NCBI GenBank assembly: GCA_016218825.1 | Contig: JACRCV010000005.1 | Location: 1-50,010 of the forward strand | Direction: 5' to 3' | Length of the DNA: 50,010 bases | DNA from: Deltaproteobacteria bacterium | GTDB taxonomy: Bacteria > Myxococcota > XYA12-FULL-58-9 | Shown here: in pieces, positions 7,911 to 48,921 of the stretch | How the letters are laid out: the number at the start of each line of letters is the position of its first letter | Position numbering within the stretch: the first letter of the stretch is position 1 | Notes under the pieces: model-generated | The model's input: only the letters and a program-made list of their open reading frames with translations | What the model was told of the DNA's origin: nothing | Databases searched by the model: none | Program-made: the position numbers and the translations under genes

Positions 7911-9380
7911 TCAGGCGATGCGGACGCCGGCGACCTTGGGCGAGCGCAGCGCCGGGATCATCGGCGCCGAGGTGTCGGGGTTGATGCGGCGCGCCACCTT
8001 GTCGAGGCGGGTGCGGACGACGACGCCGTGGTCGCTGGAGACGTCGCTGATCGCAAACGGCTCGGGCCGCGGCCGCGCCGCGCCCGGGACCGCGCCGATC
8101 CCCGCTTGCACCATCGGGTGGGTGGAGAGCGCCGCGGCCGGGGTCAGCCGCTGCACTTCGTCGGCGGTCGCGAGCCCGGTCATCAGCAACACCCGGTCGA
8201 CCTCGGCCAAGAGCGCCCGGTCGCCGGAGTCGGCGGCGAAGCTGCGGGCCTTGAAGAGCGCCAGGCGCGCCTGGTCGGGGTTGCGCTCGGCGAACAGCTC
8301 GGCGCGCGCCAAAGACATCATCGACGCCAGGCAGGGCCAGTTGACGATCGGCCTGCCGACCAGCTGTTTCAGGCGGCCGCGGGCGTCGAGGCCGACGCGA
8401 TGCTCGACGCGCGCCAGCGCCAGGTCGGCGACCACGACCTGGTAGTCGAGCTTGACGCTGGCGTACAGGTGGCGGCCGCGCATCAGCGCTTGCCGGGCGG
8501 CCGACGGATCGAGCTCCATCAACGCCTGCCCGAGCAGGGTGTGAACGTAGGCGCGGATGGGGATCTCTTCGAGGTCGACGACGTCGACGAGGATGCGCTT
8601 CAAGCCGTGCGCCGCCCGCTCGTGGTCGCCGAGGATCAACAAGCACTCGGCGCGCGCCAACCGCGCCCGCAACCGATCGAAGGCGCTGCCGGAGGACGAC
8701 AGGTAGCGCTCCGCCGCCAGCAGGTCGCGGGCCGCGGCGATGCCGTCGCCGCTCCTCGCCAAGATGCAGGCGCGCTCGAGCCGCGCCAGCGCCAGCGCCC
8801 GGCCGTCGCCGAGCTCGGTGAAGGTGAAGACCGCCGCCGTGATCCGATCCAACGCCCGCCGCACGTAACCGGCCCGCAGCCGCGCCCGCGCCCGCAGACA
8901 CTCGACCTTCGCCGCCCGCACCTGGTCGGCCTGCGCCACGAACGCCTCGGTCGCCGCCTTGAACAACACCTCCGCTTCCTCGATGCGCCCGGCGTCCAAG
9001 AACATCTCGCCCAAGTCCCGCCGCGCCCGCGCCGCCCCGAGCTTGTCCCCGGCCGCGTCGTAGCCCGCACCCGTCGCCGTGAGCAGCTCCTCCCAGTCGC
9101 CGCCGCCGCCGCGCATCGCACACCGGGCCAAAAGCTCATTGATCTTGAGGCGAAGCGCCGGGTCTTCGACCCGGGAATGCGGGCACAACAGGTCCCGCGC
9201 CGCCTTGTAACGACCATGCTGCGCCAGGCCCCGGGCGCGACGATAAGCCTGGTCCGGCTTCTCCGGGTCCGAGAGGATGCCCTCCTTCAGCAGAAGCTCC
9301 GGGGGCAAACCGGCGCTCAACGGCGGTGCGGCGTCGTTGCCGGCGCCCTGAAAACCCTTAATTAGCGCTGAGATGCTCAC
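7911..9380 (-). CDS. TPR-like repeat protein
   Basis: This is a 489-aa, almost entirely alpha-helical protein built of degenerate tetratricopeptide-like pairs from about residue 35 to 400. Examples are LGAARARRDLGEMFLDAGRIEEAEVLFKAA-type helices and repeated LA-A-LERA segments. There is no signal peptide or membrane helix, so it is probably a cytoplasmic scaffold. The last 80 residues are Pro/Arg-rich and less ordered. The GTG at 9380 is chosen because GGGG lies just upstream and the remaining upstream frame is low-complexity. Function is unknown. Confidence 0.7.
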   Translation of the reverse strand: MSISALIKGFQGAGNDAAPPLSAGLPPELLLKEGILSDPEKPDQAYRRARGLAQHGRYKAARDLLCPHSRVEDPALRLKINELLARCAMRGGGGDWEELLTATGAGYDAAGDKLGAARARRDLGEMFLDAGRIEEAEVLFKAATEAFVAQADQVRAAKVECLRARARLRAGYVRRALDRITAAVFTFTELGDGRALALARLERACILARSGDGIAAARDLLAAERYLSSSGSAFDRLRARLARAECLLILGDHERAAHGLKRILVDVVDLEEIPIRAYVHTLLGQALMELDPSAARQALMRGRHLYASVKLDYQVVVADLALARVEHRVGLDARGRLKQLVGRPIVNWPCLASMMSLARAELFAERNPDQARLALFKARSFAADSGDRALLAEVDRVLLMTGLATADEVQRLTPAAALSTHPMVQAGIGAVPGAARPRPEPFAISDVSSDHGVVVRTRLDKVARRINPDTSAPMIPALRSPKVAGVRIA

Positions 9381-38209: not shown

Positions 38210-39003
38210 GGCGCGGCAGCGCTCGCCGCCCGCCGGTGCCGGCCACGGCTTGGCCGGCGTTGGTGTTCTTGGTGAGCTTGGCGTCGTCCGCAGCGCGCGC
38301 CGAGGAGAGGCCGGCCGCCGAGAAAGACTTGGTGCAGCGCGACGACTACGTCGTCCGCCTCGCCTTCCCGACCGAGCAGGACTTCGAGACCTGGCGCCTG
38401 CCCGGTTTCCGCATCGCGCTGGGCTACGGCTACGGCCGGCTGTGGGGCTCGGTCCCTGAGACCGACCTGTCCACCCATCATCTGATGCTGCGGCCCTCGG
38501 TTCGCATCGATGCGCATTGGTCGATCGCCAGCAGCTGTGTCTACTCCATCGCCGGCAAGGACGTGACCGGGCTGCGCTGGAGCGTGTCGCTGGAGCCCAC
38601 CTTTCATCCGGTCGCTGGAGTCGCGGTGGCGGTCGGCGTTGGTTACGCCGGCATCCTCGGCAATCGCAACGAGTATCGGCCGTCGTCGTTCGCCCCGGCT
38701 TCGGGCTCGGCCCCCGGCTCCGGGCTCGACTCGCAGGCGCCGGCCCGCAGTCGCTCGGTGCTCCGCGACGAGGTCCTGAACGAGTGCAGCGGCGCCGGCT
38801 GGAACGCCCTCGCCCGGGCCGAGGTGCTGTTCGTCGTCGGGCCGCTGTTCGCGTCCGGACCGTTTCTGCAGGCCGACCAGCAGTGGGTCGAGTGCGAGGA
38901 GTCCTTCGGCGAGAGCGATCTCGAGACCGGCCACTCCATCGTCGTCAAAGAGTGGTGGGGTCACAAAGGCGTCAGCCTCGGCTGGTGGTTCTCGTGGCGC
39001 TAG
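38200..39003 (+). CDS. Putative outer-membrane protein
   Basis: This is a 267-aa protein. The signal peptide (about 1-34) ends in SSAARAEE. The mature part alternates strand-like segments (FRIALGYGYGRLWGSV, SIASSCVYSIAG, RWSVSLEPTFHPVAGVAVAVGVGYAGILG, GVSLGWWFSWR) with polar loops, as in small beta-barrels. It ends in an aromatic/Arg cluster. The start at 38200 overlaps the upstream stop by 10 bases, and the TonB-receptor start lies within its last codons, so translation is probably coupled. Function is unknown. Confidence 0.62.
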   Translation: MPLRRGSARRPPVPATAWPALVFLVSLASSAARAEERPAAEKDLVQRDDYVVRLAFPTEQDFETWRLPGFRIALGYGYGRLWGSVPETDLSTHHLMLRPSVRIDAHWSIASSCVYSIAGKDVTGLRWSVSLEPTFHPVAGVAVAVGVGYAGILGNRNEYRPSSFAPASGSAPGSGLDSQAPARSRSVLRDEVLNECSGAGWNALARAEVLFVVGPLFASGPFLQADQQWVECEESFGESDLETGHSIVVKEWWGHKGVSLGWWFSWR

Positions 39004-41609
39004 CCTACGTCATCGCCGCGGTGCTCGCGGCCGAAGGGGCCACGGGGCAAAGCGACGCGGCTGCGGCTGCGGACGCGCCGGTCGTGATGCCGACGCTCGT
39101 GCCCCCGAAGGCGAAGAAGAGCGAGATCCCCTATCCGAGCGCCGCGCCGCCGCAGATCGGCTCCGTGGACGTGACCGTGGTGTTGCACGTCGACGCGAAC
39201 GGTGAGGTCACCGCGGTGAAGCTGCTGCGGGGCGCGGGGCCGCCGTTCGACGAGGCGGTGCTCATCGGCGCCGCGTCCTTCGAGTTCGAGCCGGCGACCT
39301 ATGGCGGTGAGCCGGTGGACGTGGAGATCACCTACACCCAGCGCTTCATCCCCCCCGAGCCCGAGCCGGTGGCGCCGGCGACCGGTCTGCCGCTCGACGC
39401 CCGGTTCTCGGGCCAGGTGCTGGAGCGCGGCACCCGCAAGCCGATCCCGCGCGCCACCGTGGTGCTGCGCCTGAAGGGGGAGATGTTTCCGACCACGACC
39501 GCCGAGGACGGCACCTTCGAGGTCGCGGCGCCGTCCGGCACCGTCGAGATCCGAGTCCTGGCGACCGACTACCTGCCGTTTCGCCAGCAGGAGATCTTGA
39601 GCGCCAAGAGCCAGCTCAAGGTTCGTTACCTGCTGGAGCGCGCGACCTACAGCCCCTACGAGACCGTGGTCCTCGGCCAACGCGAGCGGATGGAGGTCAG
39701 CCGCACCACGCTTCGGGACCGCGAGATCAAACAGGTGCCGGGCACCTTCGGCGACCCATTTCGCGTGGTGACGACGCTCCCCGGCGTGTCGTCGATGACG
39801 AGCATGCTGACCTTGCCGATCGTGCGCGGCGCGAGCCCGGGGAGCACCGCGTTTCTCCTCGACGGCATCCGCTTGCCGATGCTGTTCCATTTCTTGGGCG
39901 GGCCCGCGGTCGTCCACCCCGAGTTCATCGACCACGTCGACTTCTATGCCGGTGGCTTTCGGGTCAACTACGGGGGCTACACCGCGGGGATCATCGACGG
40001 CATCACTCGGCCGGCCAGAGGCGGCGAACAGAGCTACGAGGTCGACCTGGGCCTGACCCAGACCGGCGGGCTGGTGCGCAAGAGCGTCGGGCCGGTCACC
40101 GCCACCGTGGCCGGGCGCTACGGCTACCCCGGCCTGCTGATGAAGCTCGTCAACTCCGAGGCCGGGTTGAGCTATTGGGACTATCAGACCCGCTTCGACT
40201 ACGGCAGCGCCGACAACGGCGTCAGCGTGTTCGTGCTCGGCGCCAGCGACCACGTCACGGAGACGCGGCGCGACACCACCTGTGACGCGGGTCTCGCCAG
40301 CTGCACGACCACCGAGAGGACCGAGGACGTGCTGGTGTTGGCGTTTCACCGCCTCGACGCGATTTTCCGGCGGACCTTCGGCGACCTGCACCTCGACGCC
40401 GGGGTGTCGGCCGGCTACGAGTCGTCGAATTTCGGTGCCGACGCGTTTCGGATGACGTCGCCGTCGTTGACCCCGAGGCTCGGGATCACGGAGGAGCTGC
40501 GGTCGGATCTCACGCTGCACGCCGGCGCCGAGGCCACCGTCAAGGGGACCCGGTTCCACAGCAACCCGCCCCGCGACCGCGCGCCGGGTGGGGACGGCGA
40601 TCCGGGCCCACCGAGCTCGGACTCTCCGGAGACCACCCTCGACGCCGGCACGATGTACTCGGCCTCGTTGTTCGTCGAAGCGCTGTGGCGGCCGACGCCC
40701 GACTGGCTCGTGATCCCCGGGGTGCGCGTCGACGGTTACCGCCACCGCGACGCCGAGCAGCAGGACGTCGACCCGCGGCTGGTGGCGCGCTATCGCCTGG
40801 TGGCGGCGAGCGCCGAGCGCGGCGAGACCTGGCTCAAGGGGGCGCTGGGGATCTATCACCAACCGCCGCGCCTGTTCATTCCGCTCCCCGGGATCTCGGA
40901 GATCGCGCTCGACCTGGGCCTGCTGCGCGCCATCCACTCGGTGCTCGGCGTCGAGCACGGGTTCGGCCAGGGTTTCGAGATCGACCTGCAGGCCTACTTC
41001 AACTGGATGGATCCGGTGTTCCTCGAGCCCCAGACCTCGACGATGCTCTCCGGCAACACCGCGACCCGGGGACCGAGCGCGATGCCCGGAGAGGTGCCGG
41101 GCGACAACCCCGCGGGCGGCGATCCGTTCATGGACGGCGACGGCGACGGCGGCATCAGCACCGACCCCCACGGCAAGGGGCGGGCCTACGGCATCGAGGT
41201 GCTGCTCCGCCGCCGGCAGCTGGGCCACGTCTTCGGTTGGCTCGCCTACACCCTGTCCCGCAGCGAGCGCCTTCAAGACGGGGCGTGGCACCTGTTTGAC
41301 TACGACCGCACCCACATGTTCAACCTCGTCGCCGGGGTCGCGCTGCCCCGCAACTGGGAGGCGGGGTTGCGGGTGCTGTTGCAGAGCGGCACGCCGCTGT
41401 CGACGGTGTCCGGCGTCAACACCGGCCGCAGCGACTGGCAGCTGCGCTTCGACGTCCGCTTCGACAAGCGTGCGGTGTGGAACGAATGGATGCTCGACTT
41501 CTACGTCGACGTCATCAACCTGACGGTGTCGCCGGAGAGCGGCGGCATCGCCGGCGGCGACGCGTTCCGCTACCTGGTGCCGACCGTCGGGTTCCGCGGC
41601 GTCTTCTGA
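38985..41609 (+). CDS. TonB-dependent receptor with N-terminal TonB-like domain
   Basis: This is about an 874-aa outer-membrane receptor. A short signal peptide (VLVALAYVIAAVLAAEGA) is followed by a TonB C-terminal-like domain (about 45-115: GSVDVTVVLHVDANGEV, FDEAVLIGAASFEFEPA). A carboxypeptidase-regulatory-like beta domain follows (about 130-215: FSGQVLERGTRKPIPRATV). The plug (about 230-330) has LPIVRGASPGSTAFLLDGI and the barrel ends in VPTVGFRGVF with the terminal Phe. It would import an unknown ligand using the TonB/ExbBD system. A GTG start at 38985 is most likely; 38994 is an alternative. It is translationally coupled to the upstream gene. Metal or siderophore preference cannot be told. 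Confidence 0.87.
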   Translation: MVLVALAYVIAAVLAAEGATGQSDAAAAADAPVVMPTLVPPKAKKSEIPYPSAAPPQIGSVDVTVVLHVDANGEVTAVKLLRGAGPPFDEAVLIGAASFEFEPATYGGEPVDVEITYTQRFIPPEPEPVAPATGLPLDARFSGQVLERGTRKPIPRATVVLRLKGEMFPTTTAEDGTFEVAAPSGTVEIRVLATDYLPFRQQEILSAKSQLKVRYLLERATYSPYETVVLGQRERMEVSRTTLRDREIKQVPGTFGDPFRVVTTLPGVSSMTSMLTLPIVRGASPGSTAFLLDGIRLPMLFHFLGGPAVVHPEFIDHVDFYAGGFRVNYGGYTAGIIDGITRPARGGEQSYEVDLGLTQTGGLVRKSVGPVTATVAGRYGYPGLLMKLVNSEAGLSYWDYQTRFDYGSADNGVSVFVLGASDHVTETRRDTTCDAGLASCTTTERTEDVLVLAFHRLDAIFRRTFGDLHLDAGVSAGYESSNFGADAFRMTSPSLTPRLGITEELRSDLTLHAGAEATVKGTRFHSNPPRDRAPGGDGDPGPPSSDSPETTLDAGTMYSASLFVEALWRPTPDWLVIPGVRVDGYRHRDAEQQDVDPRLVARYRLVAASAERGETWLKGALGIYHQPPRLFIPLPGISEIALDLGLLRAIHSVLGVEHGFGQGFEIDLQAYFNWMDPVFLEPQTSTMLSGNTATRGPSAMPGEVPGDNPAGGDPFMDGDGDGGISTDPHGKGRAYGIEVLLRRRQLGHVFGWLAYTLSRSERLQDGAWHLFDYDRTHMFNLVAGVALPRNWEAGLRVLLQSGTPLSTVSGVNTGRSDWQLRFDVRFDKRAVWNEWMLDFYVDVINLTVSPESGGIAGGDAFRYLVPTVGFRGVF

Positions 41610-41744
41610 GCGACGTCGGCCGCTGCCTGCCGTTCTTGGGCGGGCTTCGATCAAGCTCGCGCCGGCCGCGCTATCGACGTCGGTCCGGCGGCCTAGTATA
41701 GAGGGCCGGCGGCGGCACCCGCCGCGCCGACCTTCGAGGAGCCG

Positions 41745-42470
41745 ATGCGCAAACTCTGGGCATGTCAGGTGGCGATCGCCGTGATTCTCTTCGCGCGCCC
41801 CGGCGCGGCGGTGGAGCTGACCCTGCAGAACGACGGCTGGACGAGCGGCGCCCAGGCCAAGTGTCAAGGCGGCTTTGCGGTGGGTGAAGAGGCCGCGGTC
41901 ACGTTCGGGCCGCTCGCCGGCACCGCGACCTTGGAGTCGATCGAGCTGTTGTTTTGCGGTGCGACCACGAGCGCGATGGTGGGCCTGCGGGTGCTCGCCG
42001 ACGACGGCACCGCGACCCCCGGCGCCGAGCTCTACGCGACCGGTTATCAGCTGACCGGCGCCGACAACGCCATCCAGAGCCTGGACTTGAGCGCCTTGAA
42101 CCTGACGTTCGCCGCCGGGGCGCGGTTTCGGGTCGCGTTCGAGATGCAGCAAACCGGCCTGCCCTCGGTCGCCGCCGACACCGACGGCAGCATCCAGACC
42201 GGCAAGAACTGGATCGCGACCGCCGGCGGCTGGACCGACAGCAAGAACCTCGGGCTCACCGGCGATTGGATCATCCGCGCCAAGGTCAACATCGACCTGA
42301 GCAGCGCCGACGGCGGTCCGAGCCCCGGGGACGCGGACACCGGCTGTGTTGCCGGCGAGGTTTGCGCCAACGAGCCCAAGGACGGCTGCGCCTGTGTGCA
42401 GCACACCGCCTCGGCGTGGGCCGGGCTCGCGCTCGTGGCGTTCGCTGCCGGACGCCGGCGACGGCGGTGA
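41745..42470 (+). CDS. Secreted protein with MYXO-CTERM sorting tail
   Basis: This is a 241-aa protein. The signal peptide is MRKLWACQVAIAVILFARPG. A beta-rich domain (about 25-190) contains repeated VGLRVLADDGTATPGAELYATG-like strands, resembling choice-of-anchor or carbohydrate-binding modules. A Cys-rich stalk follows (about 195-220). The C-terminus has DGCACVQ, a hydrophobic helix and a final RRRRR, which is the MYXO-CTERM pattern recognised by myxosortases for lipid-linked surface display in Myxococcota. GAGGAG lies three bases before the ATG. A TAGTATA at 41694-41700 is a weak -10 candidate. The stop overlaps the next start by one base. Confidence 0.82.
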   Translation: MRKLWACQVAIAVILFARPGAAVELTLQNDGWTSGAQAKCQGGFAVGEEAAVTFGPLAGTATLESIELLFCGATTSAMVGLRVLADDGTATPGAELYATGYQLTGADNAIQSLDLSALNLTFAAGARFRVAFEMQQTGLPSVAADTDGSIQTGKNWIATAGGWTDSKNLGLTGDWIIRAKVNIDLSSADGGPSPGDADTGCVAGEVCANEPKDGCACVQHTASAWAGLALVAFAAGRRRRR

Positions 42471-43276
42471 TGGCGACCGCGGCTTCGGGAAAGCTCGGCG
42501 CCCGCATCGTGCCTCGGGCGGGCTTGTCGGCCTCCGAGCGCCTCGAGATGTGGCGCCTGTTCTGCAGGTTCTACGACGACGTGACCCGGGCGCAGTTCGA
42601 CCTCGATCTGGACGCCAAAGACGACGTCATCCTGCTCTTGAGCGGCGACGGCGTGTTGCAGGGCTTTTCGACCTTGGCGCGCTATTCGCTCGCCGCCTGC
42701 GGCCGGCGTTATCAGATCGTGTTCTCCGGCGACACCATCGTCGATCCGCGCTACTGGGGCCAGACGGCGCTACAGCTCGCCTTCTATCGCTACGTCCTCG
42801 CGACCAAGCTCCGCTGCCCGTGGCGGCCGCTCTACTGGTTCTTGATCACCAAGGGGTATCGGACCTACCTGCTGCTGTCGCGCAACTTCCTGGAGTACTG
42901 GCCGCGCCACGACCGACCGACGCCGCCGGAGGTGGGCGCGCTGTTGGCGGCGGTCGCCGGCGGGCGATTCCCCGCCGCCTGGCGGCCGGCGCTGGGGATC
43001 TTGCGCTTCGCGGCGGCGCGCGGCCGGCTGAAGGAGAGCGTCGCGCCGATCACGCCGGAGCTGCTGCGGCACGCCGATATCCGCTTCTTCGTCGCCAAGA
43101 ACCCGGGCCACGCCGCCGGTGACGAGCTCTGCTGCCTCGGTCGCATCGACCTGCGCTTCGCTCTCGCCTATGCTGCGAAGCAGCTCGGCCGGCTCGCAAC
43201 GAGACTCTGGCGGCGCAGGCGCTCATGGCTATCCACCCCCTCCTCCTCCACGCCTTCGACGCCGCCTATCTCCTGA
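42470..43276 (+). CDS. GNAT-like acyltransferase candidate
   Basis: This is a 268-aa cytoplasmic protein. ILLLSGDGVLQGFSTLARYS, then VFSGDTIVDPRYWGQTALQL and AFYRYVLATKLR, have the order of GNAT beta4/beta5 and acetyl-CoA-binding helix (the WGQTALQ region standing where R/Q-x-x-G-x-G/A is expected). This makes a GNAT-fold N-acyltransferase likely but not certain. The C-terminal tail after about 245 is Ser/Pro-rich because it overlaps the next gene by 52 bases. The ATG at 42470 overlaps the preceding TGA. Its position directly before a GH3 ligase suggests a shared pathway. Confidence 0.55.
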   Translation: MATAASGKLGARIVPRAGLSASERLEMWRLFCRFYDDVTRAQFDLDLDAKDDVILLLSGDGVLQGFSTLARYSLAACGRRYQIVFSGDTIVDPRYWGQTALQLAFYRYVLATKLRCPWRPLYWFLITKGYRTYLLLSRNFLEYWPRHDRPTPPEVGALLAAVAGGRFPAAWRPALGILRFAAARGRLKESVAPITPELLRHADIRFFVAKNPGHAAGDELCCLGRIDLRFALAYAAKQLGRLATRLWRRRRSWLSTPSSSTPSTPPIS

Positions 43277-44805
43277 TCCAATCGCGGGCGCTGCGGCGCT
43301 TTCAGGCCGCGACCCACGACGTCCTCGGCACCCAAGCCCGCCTCCTCGCCCGGCTCGTCGACCGCAATCGGGACACCGCCTATGGCCGGGCGCACGCGTT
43401 TGCGCGCATTCGGTCGGTCGCGGACTTCCAGGCGCGGGTGCCGGTGGTCGCGCACCGCGACCTGGTGCCGTGGATCGAGAGAGCTGCCGCGGGGGAGGCG
43501 AACGTGCTCACCCGGTCCGCGGTGCTGCTGTTCGAGCCGACGTCGGGGACCACCGAGCAGCCGAAGCTGATCCCTTTCACCCGCGACTTGCTCGCCGAGA
43601 TCCAAAACGCCACCGGGGCGTGGCTCTGCGATCTCTATCGCGCCCGGCCGCAGCTGCGCGGCACGCGGAGCTACTGGTCCATCTCGCCGGCGCTGCGCGC
43701 CGTGCGCCGCACCGCGGGCGGCGCGCGCATCGGCTTCGCCGACGACACCGAGTATCTCGGCCCGCTCGCCTCCTGGCTGTGGCGGCAGAAGCTCGCGGTG
43801 CCGCCGGCGGTGGCACGCTGCGCCGACATCGAAGGGTGGCGCCACCAGACCCTGCGGCACCTGCTCCTGGCCGACGACCTCGGCATGATCTCGGTGTGGA
43901 GCCCGACCTTCCTGTCGCTGTTGATGACCACGCTCGAGCGTCGCTTCGAGGCGGTGCTCGCCGACCTTCCCCCGGGCCGCGCCGCCGAGCTCCGCCGGCG
44001 GGTCGACGCCGCCGGCGCCCTCACCGCCGCCGCCCTTTGGCCGCGGCTCGGTCTGATCTCGTGCTGGACCGCGGCGAGCGCCCGCCTCTTCGTGGCCGAC
44101 CTCGGGCGCTGGTTTGCCGGCGTCGAGATCCAAGGCAAGGGCCTGATGGCGACCGAGGGGATCGTGTCGTTCCCTCTCAGCGCCGAGAACCGCGGCCCGG
44201 TCGCCGCGATCCGCAGTCACTTCCTCGAGTTCCAACCCGTGTCCGGCAGCCGCGAACGGCCGCGGCTGGCGCACGAGCTCGAAGCCGGCGAGCGCTACGT
44301 GCCGCTGTTGTCCACCGGCGGCGGTCTGTACCGCTATGCGCTCGGCGACGTCGTCGCCTGCGTCGGGCACCACCATCAGGCGCCGCTGTTGCAGTTCGAG
44401 GGCAAGCGCGACCTGACGAGTGACCTCGCCGGCGAGAAGCTCGACGCCACCGCGGTGAGCGCGGCGCTCGAGCACGCGAGCCAAACGCTGGGAGCGCCGC
44501 TCCGCTTCGCCCTCGTCGCCCCGGCGCTCGAATCGACCCCGGGCTATCGGCTGTACGTGGACTGCGACGCCGATGACGCCGCCCTCGACCGATTCGTAGG
44601 CGCCGTGGAGGCGTCCCTGTGTGGCAACTTCCACTACCGCTACTGTCGTGACTTGGGCCAGCTCGCGGCGCTGCGCGTGCGGCGGGTGACGGATGGATGG
44701 GCGCGCTTCGAGGCGGCGCAAGCGCGGCGCGGCGCGGTGCTCGGCGGCCTGAAGCCGCTGGGGCTCGACAGCCGTCCCGATTGGGCGGAGGTGTTCGGCG
44801 CATGA
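43225..44805 (+). CDS. GH3-family acyl-acid amido synthetase
   Basis: This is a 526-aa adenylating enzyme of the GH3 (auxin-responsive promoter) family, which joins an acyl acid to an amino acid or amine through an acyl-AMP intermediate. The motifs are LLFEPTSGTTEQPKLIPFT (ATP/AMP loop), LMATEGIVSFP (the T/S-E-G motif) and LLSTGGGLYRYALGDVVACV. The C-terminal small domain has FEGKRDLTSDLAGEKLDAT. It is slightly shorter than plant GH3 proteins (about 600 aa), as expected for bacterial members. It overlaps the upstream GNAT-like gene by 52 bases and the RND gene by four (ATGA). Its substrate is unknown. No carrier protein is nearby, so the product is probably a free conjugate. Confidence 0.88.
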   Translation: MAIHPLLLHAFDAAYLLIQSRALRRFQAATHDVLGTQARLLARLVDRNRDTAYGRAHAFARIRSVADFQARVPVVAHRDLVPWIERAAAGEANVLTRSAVLLFEPTSGTTEQPKLIPFTRDLLAEIQNATGAWLCDLYRARPQLRGTRSYWSISPALRAVRRTAGGARIGFADDTEYLGPLASWLWRQKLAVPPAVARCADIEGWRHQTLRHLLLADDLGMISVWSPTFLSLLMTTLERRFEAVLADLPPGRAAELRRRVDAAGALTAAALWPRLGLISCWTAASARLFVADLGRWFAGVEIQGKGLMATEGIVSFPLSAENRGPVAAIRSHFLEFQPVSGSRERPRLAHELEAGERYVPLLSTGGGLYRYALGDVVACVGHHHQAPLLQFEGKRDLTSDLAGEKLDATAVSAALEHASQTLGAPLRFALVAPALESTPGYRLYVDCDADDAALDRFVGAVEASLCGNFHYRYCRDLGQLAALRVRRVTDGWARFEAAQARRGAVLGGLKPLGLDSRPDWAEVFGA

Positions 44806-47111
44806 GGGCGGCGGTCGCGGTGCAGACCATCGCCGCCCTGATCGAGCGGCGCGCGGCGGTGATCGCGGTGGTGCTGGCGCTCACCGGCGCCGCCGCCCTG
44901 AGCCTGTGCCGCATCCACTTCGAGGACCGCATCGACGTCTGGTTCGTCGCCGGCGACGCGGAGCTCGCGGCCTACAGAGAGTTCAAGGCGAAGTTCGAGT
45001 CGGACGAGCTCATCGTCGTCGGGGTGAGCGCCGCGAGCCTGTTCACCCCCGAGGCCCTGGCGGCGCTCGAGCGGCTGACCCGCGAGGTCGCGCACGCGCC
45101 CCACGTTCGCCGGGCGCTGTCGCTCACCAACGTCGAGGTGCCGATGGCGGGCGAAGACGGCCTCGAGGTGCGGCGCTTCATCGACAGCCCGCCCTACGAG
45201 CCGGCGGCCGCTCTGCGCCTGAGGACCCGGGCGCTGGCGCATCCGCTCATCCGCGGCAACCTGGTGTCAGCGGACGGTCGGGCCGCGGCGATCCTCGTCG
45301 AGCTCGCGGCCGACGCCGCCGACGTCCGCGCCAAGCGCGCGCTCGTCGATGCCCTGCGGCGGCTCGGGAGCGCGGCGCCGCCCTTGCAGGTCCACGTCGC
45401 CGGGCTACCGGTGTTGAACGCCGCGTTTCACGCGTACAGCCAACGGGATCTGCTGCTGCTCGTGCCGCTGTCGCTGGTATTGGTGGGCGTCGCCGTCTTC
45501 CTGTTGTTTCGGCGTTTCTTTGCGGTGCTGATCACGCTCGCCGTGGTCTTCGTCACCCTGCTGTGGGTGTTCGGCCTCGTCGCGCTCTGCGGCATCAAGG
45601 TGCACGTGCTGCTGACGGCGCTGCCGACCTTTCTCCTGGTCGCCAGCGTCGGTGACGCGATCCACCTGGTGAGCGACTACGAGGGCGCGCTTCGTCGGGG
45701 CGCGGCGCAGCTCGACGCGGTCCGCGACACCGTGCGCCGCCTGGTCAAGCCCTGCTTCTTCACCGCCGCGACCACCGCCGTCGGGGCGCTGGCGCTCGGC
45801 ACCAGCGATCTCGGCCCGGTGCGCGACTTCGCATGGCTCGGAGCCGCGGGGGTCATGATCGGCTGGCTCTTGACCATGACCTTCGCGCCGGCGCTGCTCG
45901 CGGTCCTGCCAGTTCCGCGGCTGCCACCGGAGACCGCGTCGGGGCGCGGGCTGCGGCGGCTGTTGGCGGCGCTCGCGCTTCCCACCCGGCGGCAAAGCGT
46001 CGTCGTGCTCGCCGCGACCGTCGTGCTCGCAGGGGTGGCGGCATGGGGGACGACGCGGCTGCACGTGGGAACGAACGCGCTCACCTATTTCCGGGACCGC
46101 GATCCGGTGCGCGTCGACACCGAGTTCATCGACGCGACGCTCGGCGGCACCGGGCGGGTGGAGCTCGTGGCGCACGCGCCGCAGGGCGGTCTCAAGCATC
46201 TGACGGTGCTGCGCCGCCTCGAGGCGCTGGCGGCCTGGGTGAAGCAGCACGAGGCGGTGACCCAGACCTTCTCCGTGGTCGACGTCCTCAAGGCGTTGAA
46301 CTGGGCGGCGCACGGCGAAGATCCCGACGAGATCCGGCTCCCCGAGTCGCGCCTGGCGGTGGTGAGCTACTACGCCGCGATCGGTGCGGCGGCCCTGCAG
46401 AGCCTGGTGCAAGACGACTTCAGCGTCGGCCGGCTGAGCGCCCGTCTGAAGCTCACCGAGGGCGAGGCGCTGGCGCGCCAGGTGCCGGTGCTCGAGGCGA
46501 AGCTCGCCGAGGCGTACGCCGATCAAGAGCTGACGGTGCACGCGACCGGGATCGTGAAGCTGATGGGGAAGATGGAGAAGTACATCCTCGAGAGCCAGAC
46601 GCGCGGCTTCGCGACCGCGTTCGTGCTCGTGGCGCTCTTGCTGTTGGCGCTGTTGCGGTCGGTGCGCCTCACGCTCCTGGTGATGATCCCCAACGCGCTG
46701 CCGGTGTTGTTCGCGGTGGGCTTCATGGGCATCGCCGGCATCCCGCTCGACCCGGCGACGGCAATGGTGGCGCCGCTCTCGCTCGGGCTCATCGACGACG
46801 ACACCGTGCACTTCGTGGTGCGCATGCGCGAGCACCAACACGCCGGGCTGTCGCTCACCGAGGCGCTGGCGCGCACGGTGCAAGAGGTCGGTCGGCCGAT
46901 GCTGATGATGAGCGCGGTCTTGGCGCTGGGGTTCGGGGTGTTGCTGCTCGCGAGCTTCGCCCCCAACGTCCACTTCGCCGCGGTGACCCTCGTGGTGATC
47001 TCTTTGGCGGTGCTCGGCGACCTGGTGCTGCTCCCGGCGGTGCTGACTCTGGCGCGGCCGTGGTTCAGGGTCGCGGCCGACGTGCCGCCAGGGTCCCGGC
47101 CTCGGGGGTGA
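44802..47111 (+). CDS. RND/MMPL-type exporter (HAE3-like)
   Basis: This is a 769-aa, 12-helix transporter. It is a duplicated unit: helix 1 (about 18-36) and periplasmic loop (about 37-235), then five helices; helix 7 (about 415-435), a second periplasmic loop (about 436-615), then five helices. VASVGDAIHLVSDYE and LGLIDDDTVHFVVRMREH are the paired helix-4/helix-10 motifs carrying acidic residues for proton coupling. MMPL relatives export lipids or hydrophobic molecules. No separate membrane-fusion protein or outer-membrane partner is adjacent. The ATGA overlap with the GH3 gene makes it the likely exporter of the GH3 product. Confidence 0.88.
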   Translation: MRAAVAVQTIAALIERRAAVIAVVLALTGAAALSLCRIHFEDRIDVWFVAGDAELAAYREFKAKFESDELIVVGVSAASLFTPEALAALERLTREVAHAPHVRRALSLTNVEVPMAGEDGLEVRRFIDSPPYEPAAALRLRTRALAHPLIRGNLVSADGRAAAILVELAADAADVRAKRALVDALRRLGSAAPPLQVHVAGLPVLNAAFHAYSQRDLLLLVPLSLVLVGVAVFLLFRRFFAVLITLAVVFVTLLWVFGLVALCGIKVHVLLTALPTFLLVASVGDAIHLVSDYEGALRRGAAQLDAVRDTVRRLVKPCFFTAATTAVGALALGTSDLGPVRDFAWLGAAGVMIGWLLTMTFAPALLAVLPVPRLPPETASGRGLRRLLAALALPTRRQSVVVLAATVVLAGVAAWGTTRLHVGTNALTYFRDRDPVRVDTEFIDATLGGTGRVELVAHAPQGGLKHLTVLRRLEALAAWVKQHEAVTQTFSVVDVLKALNWAAHGEDPDEIRLPESRLAVVSYYAAIGAAALQSLVQDDFSVGRLSARLKLTEGEALARQVPVLEAKLAEAYADQELTVHATGIVKLMGKMEKYILESQTRGFATAFVLVALLLLALLRSVRLTLLVMIPNALPVLFAVGFMGIAGIPLDPATAMVAPLSLGLIDDDTVHFVVRMREHQHAGLSLTEALARTVQEVGRPMLMMSAVLALGFGVLLLASFAPNVHFAAVTLVVISLAVLGDLVLLPAVLTLARPWFRVAADVPPGSRPRG

Positions 47112-47225
47112 AGGCGCCGCCGGTCATCAAGGCCAGCCGGGTCGCGTTCGCGAAGCTATCGACCTCGACGCGATGGCGTGGGAAAAGGAACGGACAGCGA
47201 GAGCGTCGCTCGAAGGAGCCAGCCG

Positions 47226-48317
47226 ATGAGCATCGAGTCCGCGGTCACCGGCGCGCCCGCCGAAGGCGTCGCCAAGCGGCTGTCCTTTCTCGACCGCTAT
47301 CTCACCCTCTGGATCTTCATCGCGATGGCGGTCGGTGTCGGCGCCGGCTACCTGGTTCCGCGCGTCGTCTCGTTCATCAACCAGTTCAACGTCGGGACGA
47401 CCAACATCCCGATCGCCGTCGGGCTCGTCTTGATGATGTACCCGCCGCTGGCGAAGGTCCGTTACGAGGAGATGGGTCCGGTCTTCCGCAACACCAAGGT
47501 CCTGGGCCTGTCGTTGGTCCAGAACTGGGTCATCGGCCCGATCCTGATGTTCACTCTGGCGGTGCTCTTCCTGCACGACAAACCCGAATACATGGTCGGC
47601 CTGATCATGATCGGCCTCGCGCGTTGCATCGCGATGGTCATCGTTCGGAACGACCTGGCCAAAGGCGACACCGAGTACTGCGCCGGCCTGGTCGCCTTCA
47701 ACTCGATCTTCCAGGTGCTGTTCTTCTCGGTCTACGCCTTCGTCTTCATCACCGTCGTGCCGACGTGGATCGGTCTCGAGGGCGTGGCCGTCCACATCAC
47801 GATCGGCGAGATCGCCAAGAGCGTCTTCATCTATCTCGGCATCCCGTTCTTGGCCGGCGTCATCACCCGGTTCTCGCTCATCAAGATCAAGGGCAAGGAC
47901 TGGTATCACACCGAGCTCATCCCGAAGATCAGCCCCATCACCCTCGTCGCTCTCCTGTTCACCATCGTCGTGATGTTCTCGCTCAAGGGTGAGAAGATCA
48001 TCGAGCTGCCGCTCGACGTGGTCCGCATCGCGATCCCGCTCCTCATCTACTTCGTGCTGATGTTCTTCCTGTCGTTCTTCATGTCGAAGAAGGTCGGCGC
48101 GACCTACGGCCAGGCGACGACGCTGTCGTTCACCGCGGCCTCGAACAACTTCGAGCTCGCCATCGCGGTCGCGGTCGCGACCTTCGGCATCCACCACGGC
48201 GCGGCGTTCGCCGCGGTGATCGGGCCGCTGGTCGAGGTGCCGGTGATGATCGGCCTGGTGAACGTCGCCATCCGGCTCGGGCACGAGCACTTCGACACGC
48301 CGGCCGCGGCCCGATGA
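47226..48317 (+). CDS. acr3: ACR3-type arsenite/organic-anion efflux carrier
   Basis: This is a 363-aa protein with 10 predicted helices. The ACR3/BASS hallmarks are [50 protein letters not shown] with the functional Cys, RNDLAKGD and [20 protein letters not shown]. It would extrude arsenite using the membrane gradient. In the AMVIV-NDLAKGD segment an Arg stands where ACR3 proteins usually have Trp (from memory). There is no arsR, arsC or arsM nearby. AAGGAG precedes the ATG. A longer upstream frame is unlikely. Confidence 0.88.
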
Positions 48318-48448
48318 CCGGGGCCCTCGCCCTTGAGAGCAACCGCCCCGAATTCGCCCGGGAAAGTGGTCCGGGCCCGTCCTGTCTCGTCCCTGTCCTG
48401 TACTGCCCAATCGTCCAAGTTTGCGGCAAGATGACGGCAACTGGATTT

Positions 48449-48465
48449 GGCACCTTAAAGGTGCC
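48449..48465. promoter_or_regulatory. Palindromic operator upstream of mqsA-like gene
   Basis: GGCACCTTAAAGGTGCC is a perfect 8-bp palindrome around one central base. It ends 12 bases before the start codon and partly precedes the ribosome-binding site. The ACCTTAAAGGT core closely resembles E. coli MqsA operators (AACCT-spacer-AGGTT type), so autorepression by the gene product is likely. Confidence 0.7.
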
Positions 48466-48477
48466 ATAGAAGGAGTC

Positions 48478-48921
48478 ATGAACAAGCCCAAGGGAGTCTG
48501 CCCGGCGTGCGGGGGCAACTTTCGGCGCGGCACCCGACCCGTCGAGTTCACCTACCAGGGCGAGGTCACGACGATCAGGCAGCCGGGGTGGTACTGCACG
48601 AAGTGCGGCGAGGGCGTGCACGACGGTGCCGACATCAAGGCCACGGATCGGGCGTTCATGGAGTTCAAGGCAGTCGTCGACGGTGTGCTCGCGCCGACCG
48701 AGGTGCGACACATCCGGGAGAAGCTCCATCTCTCTCAGCGGCTCGCCGGGCAAATCCTCGGAGGCGGGCCGCGCGCGTTTCAGAAATACGAGAGCGGCAC
48801 GGCGGCGGTAAGTCAGCCAATGAGCAACCTGCTGCGTCTGCTTCGGAAGGACCCGAAGCGGCTCGCTGAGATTTCGGTATCTCCGAAGGGCAAACACGCG
48901 TACGTAAAGCAAGTGGGGTAG
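48478..48921 (+). CDS. mqsA: MqsA-like antitoxin, orphan
   Basis: This is a 147-aa protein. The N-terminal zinc domain has VCPACGGNFRRGT and YCTKCGE (two CxxC pairs, about residues 8-45), then a linker helix. The C-terminal helix-turn-helix (about 80-130) contains IREKLHLSQRLAGQILGGGPRAFQKYESG and LLRLLRKDP, which are the MqsA DNA-binding signatures. In E. coli, MqsA represses its own operon and neutralises MqsR. No MqsR-like gene (about 98 aa) is found on either side. The ATG has GAAGGAG upstream. The mapped palindrome supports autorepression. Confidence 0.88.
   Translation: MNKPKGVCPACGGNFRRGTRPVEFTYQGEVTTIRQPGWYCTKCGEGVHDGADIKATDRAFMEFKAVVDGVLAPTEVRHIREKLHLSQRLAGQILGGGPRAFQKYESGTAAVSQPMSNLLRLLRKDPKRLAEISVSPKGKHAYVKQVG

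Follow-up and report, generated by a model that had tools for sequence, protein, structure and literature searches.

Bacterial GH3 proteins are widespread, and in the literature found only OlsH has been assigned to a pathway. In the established chemistry of the family, GH3 enzymes adenylate a carboxylate and then form an amide, and OlsH of Singulisphaera acidiphila does so with fatty acids and ornithine as substrates (PMC12493201). The subject of this study is a pair of adjoining genes in a 50,010-nucleotide stretch of DNA, called the window here, from a Myxococcota genome (Deltaproteobacteria bacterium, contig JACRCV010000005.1). One gene encodes a GNAT-like protein and the other a GH3 enzyme; a gene for a MYXO-CTERM protein precedes them and one for an MMPL transporter follows. 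The likeness to OlsH lies in a bacterial GH3 of 526 amino acids with three recognizable ATP motifs, whose gene shares a small operon with genes for lipid-modifying enzymes. The partners differ, however, since OlsH is accompanied by OlsG and OlsI and by no GNAT.

Plant GH3 enzymes work by themselves on hormones and are not known to have a GNAT partner. The plant acyl acid amido synthetases JAR1, GH3.1 and GH3.12 share the ATP motifs and the C-terminal domain with the window enzyme, although the similarity is low and patchy. Alternatively, the locus can be compared from the GNAT side. OlsB, FeeM and TyzA are N-acyl amino acid synthases, enzymes of GNAT-like fold that N-acylate amino acids, and to our knowledge these systems have no GH3. 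No described GNAT-GH3 or GH3-Rieske cluster was found in the literature searched. As reported below, the GNAT-like gene and the GH3 gene form a conserved module, of which the papers and family libraries searched give no description and which is best read as GH3-dependent amide synthesis of a non-OlsH type.

A conserved pair of GNAT-fold and GH3 proteins

The GNAT-like protein gave no match above cut-off to any Pfam or NCBIfam family, curated acyltransferases of the FeeM/OlsB type included; its best NCBIfam model is a sub-threshold EboA (E 0.13). Likewise, phmmer and a profile of 68 relatives found no match in the PDB. The AlphaFold2 model has a predicted local distance difference test (pLDDT) score of 94.3 and a predicted template modelling score of 0.86, and the 50 best matches of a PDB fold search with it are nearly all GNAT acetyltransferases (best E 9.7e-7). 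The predicted fold confirms the GNAT-like nature that an earlier sequence-only reading had proposed. G97 and Y133 are invariant in an alignment of 68 family sequences. G97 is the first glycine of the coenzyme A (CoA)-binding motif A (Q/RxxGxG/A), whose second glycine position holds T, R, S, K or similar residues, and Y133, which sits in the helix where GNATs often have the catalytic acid, may be catalytic. Myxococcaceae proteins of about 490–520 amino acids (L049, L050, L051) also include a GNAT-like domain, a distant one with a profile E of about 1e-21 to 1e-24. GH3 is absent from genomes with the distant form only, those of L049 and L051 among them; the genome of L050 (G092) additionally has a normal pair.

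The second partner is a full-length member of the GH3 family. It matches PF03321 at 2.1e-43, GH3_M at 2.9e-15 and GH3_C at 1.2e-8, and its N-terminal, central and C-terminal domains score 149, 57 and 36 bits, each above the cut-off of 23.6. The three ATP/AMP-binding motifs are intact (TSGTTEQPK, KGLMATEG and GGLYRYALGD) and agree with those given for GH3 in PMC12493201. Its solved relatives found by sequence are plant GH3s only (best 4b2g, 9.2e-18).

How closely the two genes are associated was seen in 91 distinct GNAT-like loci, obtained from 80 named loci of a collection scan and the Myxococcota loci after removal of duplicates. A GH3 lies within the examined flank at 69 of them, directly adjacent on the same strand at 39 and distal at 30. 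Where at least 7 kb is available on both sides, 51 of 55 loci have it. Two of the four long-flank exceptions (L112, L125) have a GH3 of the same clade elsewhere in the genome, and the genome of another, L035, has one adjoining a second GNAT-like gene. All 11 partner genomes tested contain a GH3, including five with none in the flank. Among 97 Myxococcota genomes it occurs in 28 of the 29 that have the GNAT-like gene versus 25 of the 68 that do not (Fisher p 1.5e-8, kinship ignored).

A maximum-likelihood tree of GH3s (114 proteins, quick search, 34 weakly supported forks) places all GNAT-linked GH3s in a single clade of 81 rows with support of 100 in the Shimodaira–Hasegawa-like approximate likelihood ratio test (SH-aLRT). 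Outside it lie planctomycete OlsH-like proteins and ordinary myxococcal GH3s, none with a GNAT-like gene nearby. Ten members of the clade were labelled partnerless, most of them short-flank records and some duplicates of loci already counted as linked. Two partnerless members stand at contig ends, one with its partner truncated (L036) and one with its partner on another contig of the genome (L064). The sole real exception is L063, from a genome that is 69% complete, in which the GNAT-like gene is absent. The GNAT-like gene and GH3 thus hold as a conserved module, a fixed pair found in Myxococcota, Bdellovibrionota, Pseudomonadota, Gemmatimonadota, Acidobacteriota and Planctomycetota. The sequence-only reading had found a real unit but misdrew its border, having taken in the MYXO-CTERM and MMPL genes as well. 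One GH3 clade is now set apart by an obligate partner from an unnamed GNAT family and tied to two recurring gene sets. Two other records with the cluster, titled Euryarchaeota archaeon (L124) and Streptomyces griseus (L129), look mislabelled, because L124 is the contig of G058, whose listed phylum is that of the window, and the GC content of L129 is only 39%.

The tree also bears on whether the pair represents an OlsH-type ornithine-lipid pathway. OlsH (NF052613) is the best NCBIfam model for the window GH3 (8.7e-25), the GH3 motifs are identical in kind, and some clusters carry OlsE-like hydroxylases. Yet the score is 87.2 bits against an equivalog cut-off of 620, and the window GH3 and its clade are separate from the planctomycete OlsH-like GH3s (SH-aLRT 100), references that are themselves below the OlsH cut-off. 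They were used as stand-ins (up to 427 bits) because no protein from the 149 genomes of the L085 group passed that cut-off. Moreover, the window operon has GNAT-like, MMPL, MYXO-CTERM, ACR3 and TonB receptor genes as its members and neighbours, with neither the alpha/beta-hydrolase OlsI nor the methyltransferase OlsG. An OlsH-type pathway is therefore quite improbable, and by score and tree position the window GH3 does not appear to be OlsH. The statement of the sequence-only reading that no named bacterial pathway has this arrangement overlooked OlsH as a named GH3 lipid pathway, but it still fits the window enzyme.

The position of the pair in the window is probably secondary. In a genome of the same genus (L032) the order is two sulfatase-like genes, SLT, a tandem-GNAT gene (c7), an M20 peptidase, the GNAT-like gene, GH3 and two radical S-adenosylmethionine (radical-SAM) genes, where sulfatase-like denotes a reading of the sequences rather than a family search. 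Contig 8 of the window genome (L191) carries the two sulfatase-like genes, SLT, c7 and both radical-SAM genes in synteny with L032 at 58–80% identity, and other genes occupy the places expected for M20, GNAT-like and GH3. The window GH3 is sister to the L032 copy with support of 100. Since the contig 8 block is without the pair and the window pair is sister to that of L032, the pair has moved as a unit, in either the window or the L032 lineage, and the window copy now abuts the MMPL gene.

Gene sets around the pair and the proposed chemistry

Two architectures recur. The 39 GH3-adjacent loci include a Rieske oxygenase at 27, c7 at 24, a B12 radical-SAM gene at 4 and the diiron gene c9 at none; an FG-GAP/RnfD-like membrane protein is frequent. 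At the 30 GH3-distal loci a Rieske enzyme occurs in 29 and diiron c9 in 27, usually together with an SDR, an AurF-like protein, a ferredoxin, an OlsE-like fatty-acid hydroxylase and a hexapeptide transferase. For instance, the gammaproteobacterial loci L103, L106 and L093 show a single run of Rieske, GNAT-like, SDR, diiron c9, AurF-like, ferredoxin, Rieske, OlsE-like hydroxylase, hexapeptide transferase and GH3 genes. In the recurring membrane protein an RnfD/NqrB-like part precedes FG-GAP and UnbV/ASPIC repeats (L077:13914-16796, L043:10257-13124).

The modelled c7 protein, which in the window genome is not linked to the pair, has a tandem GNAT fold (pLDDT 92.7) closest to MAB_4324 and the N-myristoyltransferases (NMTs). 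It shares this fold with them at 10–17% identity, and the known ones act on peptide. The single NCBIfam match of the FA_hydroxylase partners is OlsE, and an FA_desaturase lies near the pair in Pleionea. The best match of the Rieske partners is SdmA. Together with a touch of BstA in the MMPL protein (36 bits), it suggested a sterol pathway, which was dropped as too weak.

From GH3 chemistry and the partner genes, the product would be an acyl-amide and probably a lipid. The GH3 enzyme would use ATP to activate a carboxylic acid to an acyl-adenylate and then join it to an amine, and the GNAT-like protein would take an acyl group from CoA or acyl carrier protein and pass it to the amine substrate or to the product. 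The NMT-like tandem GNAT and the two B12 radical-SAM enzymes encoded on the other contig may supply or modify the substrate, a role that Rieske, diiron or fatty-acid hydroxylases may take in other lineages. In the window genome the HAE3/MMPL transporter, now coupled to the moved pair, may export the product. We put the chances about even that the pair is a two-enzyme module making an amide-linked lipid such as an N-acyl amino acid or a molecule resembling an aminolipid. The leaning toward a lipid comes from the nearness of c7 to MAB_4324 and NMTs, the hydroxylases matching OlsE, the desaturase of Pleionea and the precedent of OlsH.

Several observations weigh against this reading. The use of CoA by the GNAT-like protein is uncertain because the second glycine of the motif is lost. 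The OlsE and NMT likenesses are far under every family cut-off, and a secondary metabolite other than a lipid would also suit the Rieske, SDR and diiron partners. In addition, no other Myxococcota locus, L032 included, has an MMPL or MYXO-CTERM gene beside the pair, the MMPL gene being the one whose absence counts here.

Alternatively, the pair could make a soluble oxidized secondary metabolite, such as an alkaloid- or siderophore-like amide, with the pumps serving ordinary self-resistance. The second architecture is rich in oxygenases, with two or three Rieske enzymes, two diiron proteins, ferredoxin and SDR; Marinobacter has an AcrB-type pump with an adaptor; and a TonB-dependent receptor gene ends 135 bases upstream of the window operon. 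Nevertheless, nonribosomal peptide synthetases, polyketide synthases and other scaffold enzymes were not seen among the neighbour genes scanned, and the partners include the NMT-like tandem GNAT, OlsE-like hydroxylases and a fatty acid desaturase. We regard the soluble metabolite as unlikely. The amide-linked lipid can also be stated more broadly, though more tentatively and at slightly less than an even chance: the GH3 clade and the new GNAT family may be an obligate two-enzyme amide synthase in at least six phyla, at the heart of an aminolipid or acyl-amide pathway that is large and yet to be described, and tailoring would fall to O2-dependent Rieske or diiron enzymes in one group of lineages and to B12 radical-SAM enzymes in another. 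If true, it would mean a new widespread class of bacterial amide lipids, or a pathway whose oxygenases and radical-SAM enzymes substitute for each other, of interest to lipid and natural-product biologists. The pair occurs in cultured hosts (Archangium, Marinobacter and Pleionea sediminis), and therefore the product can be sought directly.

Transporter, MYXO-CTERM protein and export

The gene after GH3 encodes a transporter that matches PF03176 in two stretches (5.8e-37, 127.8 bits), and the gene 1 protein carries the MYXO-CTERM signal TIGR03901 just above its cut-off of 20 bits, with an additional weak likeness to choice-of-anchor R. The identities that the sequence-only reading had given to these two proteins and to GH3 agree with the family searches. 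The transporter shares with HpnN, MmpL4 and BstA the PF03176 domain in two halves and the HAE3 profile TIGR00921 (200.5 bits, cut-off 352). Unlike those proteins it scores below every equivalog cut-off, so its substrate cannot be inferred. The MMPL start codon overlaps the GH3 stop codon in ATGA at 44802-44805, and a strong Shine-Dalgarno sequence, GGAGGTG, lies eight bases upstream at 44787-44793; together they are a strong sign, read from sequence, of translational coupling of MMPL to GH3.

RND/MMPL genes lie near the pair at 17 of the 91 loci: the window, one planctomycete metagenome-assembled genome, Halobacteriovoraceae, Bacteriovoracaceae and one Bdellovibrio, Marinobacter, Moraxellaceae and Pleionea. 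The last three have an adaptor protein with the RND pump, that of Marinobacter being of the AcrB type. Sixteen are within 6 kb of the pair (0.95 Mb searched) and one is at 6–9 kb (0.39 Mb searched), a clustering in which many loci are kin and whose test was selected only once the data had been seen. Side by side with the MMPL gene near the pair, Bdellovibrionota loci L115, L116, L130 and L088 have a gene for a protein of about 490–525 amino acids, which in L115 is a predicted lipoprotein with no Pfam match.

The sequence-only reading took all four genes for a synthesis-and-export unit, in which MMPL would export the product of the GNAT-like protein and GH3. In favor of such an operon are the coupling signals, the recurrence of RND pumps close to the pair in four other lineages, and mmpL9 of M. 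tuberculosis, which adjoins the tyz genes for acyl-tyrosine (PMC10404671). Against it stands the absence of MMPL from the other Myxococcota pairs, and in G003 and G008 the MMPL homologue closest to that of the window (35% and 38%) lies far from the pair amid unrelated genes. A true four-gene operon of this sort is possible but doubtful. What survives, in a weaker form, is that pumps of other RND subfamilies near the pair elsewhere make RND/MMPL export of its product plausible. The MYXO-CTERM gene, which had been placed at the head of the unit, has no homologue among 40 related loci. Both it and MMPL are local additions outside the conserved unit. The sequence-only reading had named GH3 homologues without these neighbours as grounds for refutation; such homologues exist as regards MMPL, whereas the GNAT-like gene is retained.

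Operon layout and flanking genes

The four plus-strand open reading frames (ORFs; Table 1) were read directly in the sequence, and their junctions bear out the serial overlaps of 1, 52 and 4 bases noted by the sequence-only reading. The first is TGATG at 42468-42472. At the second, the GH3 ATG at 43225 precedes the GNAT-like stop codon at 43274-43276. In L032 the two genes do not overlap, the end of the GNAT-like gene being at 8463 and the start of GH3 at 8465; the 52-base overlap is found only in the window genome because the GNAT-like C-terminus is longer there.

Table 1. Genes and ribosome-binding signal of the window operon
Feature	Position	Strand	Length and basis
Shine-Dalgarno-like GAGGAG ahead of gene 1	41736..41744	+	sequence
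Gene 1, MYXO-CTERM surface protein	41745..42470	+	241 aa; TIGR03901 21.4 bits
Gene 2, GNAT-fold acyltransferase-like protein	42470..43276	+	268 aa; AlphaFold2 model, no Pfam/NCBIfam family
Gene 3, GH3-family predicted acyl-amide synthetase	43225..44805	+	526 aa; PF03321, GH3_M, GH3_C
Gene 4, MMPL/HAE3-type RND transporter	44802..47111	+	769 aa; PF03176

The scan for sigma-70-type promoters of the window operon gave no match. The gap after the TonB-dependent receptor ORF, together with GAGGAG, makes it likely that the operon begins at gene 1. Neighbour gene calls were cross-checked by hidden Markov models and tblastn, as the simple gene caller miscalled some antisense ORFs (e.g. 39000-42404). 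The receptor ORF, 39000-41609, fuses a TonB C-terminal domain, a carboxypeptidase-regulatory-like domain, a plug and a TonB-dependent receptor barrel. The MMPL gene is directly followed by an ACR3 arsenite efflux gene (47178-48317) and then by an MqsA/YgiT-type antitoxin-like gene (48421-48921).

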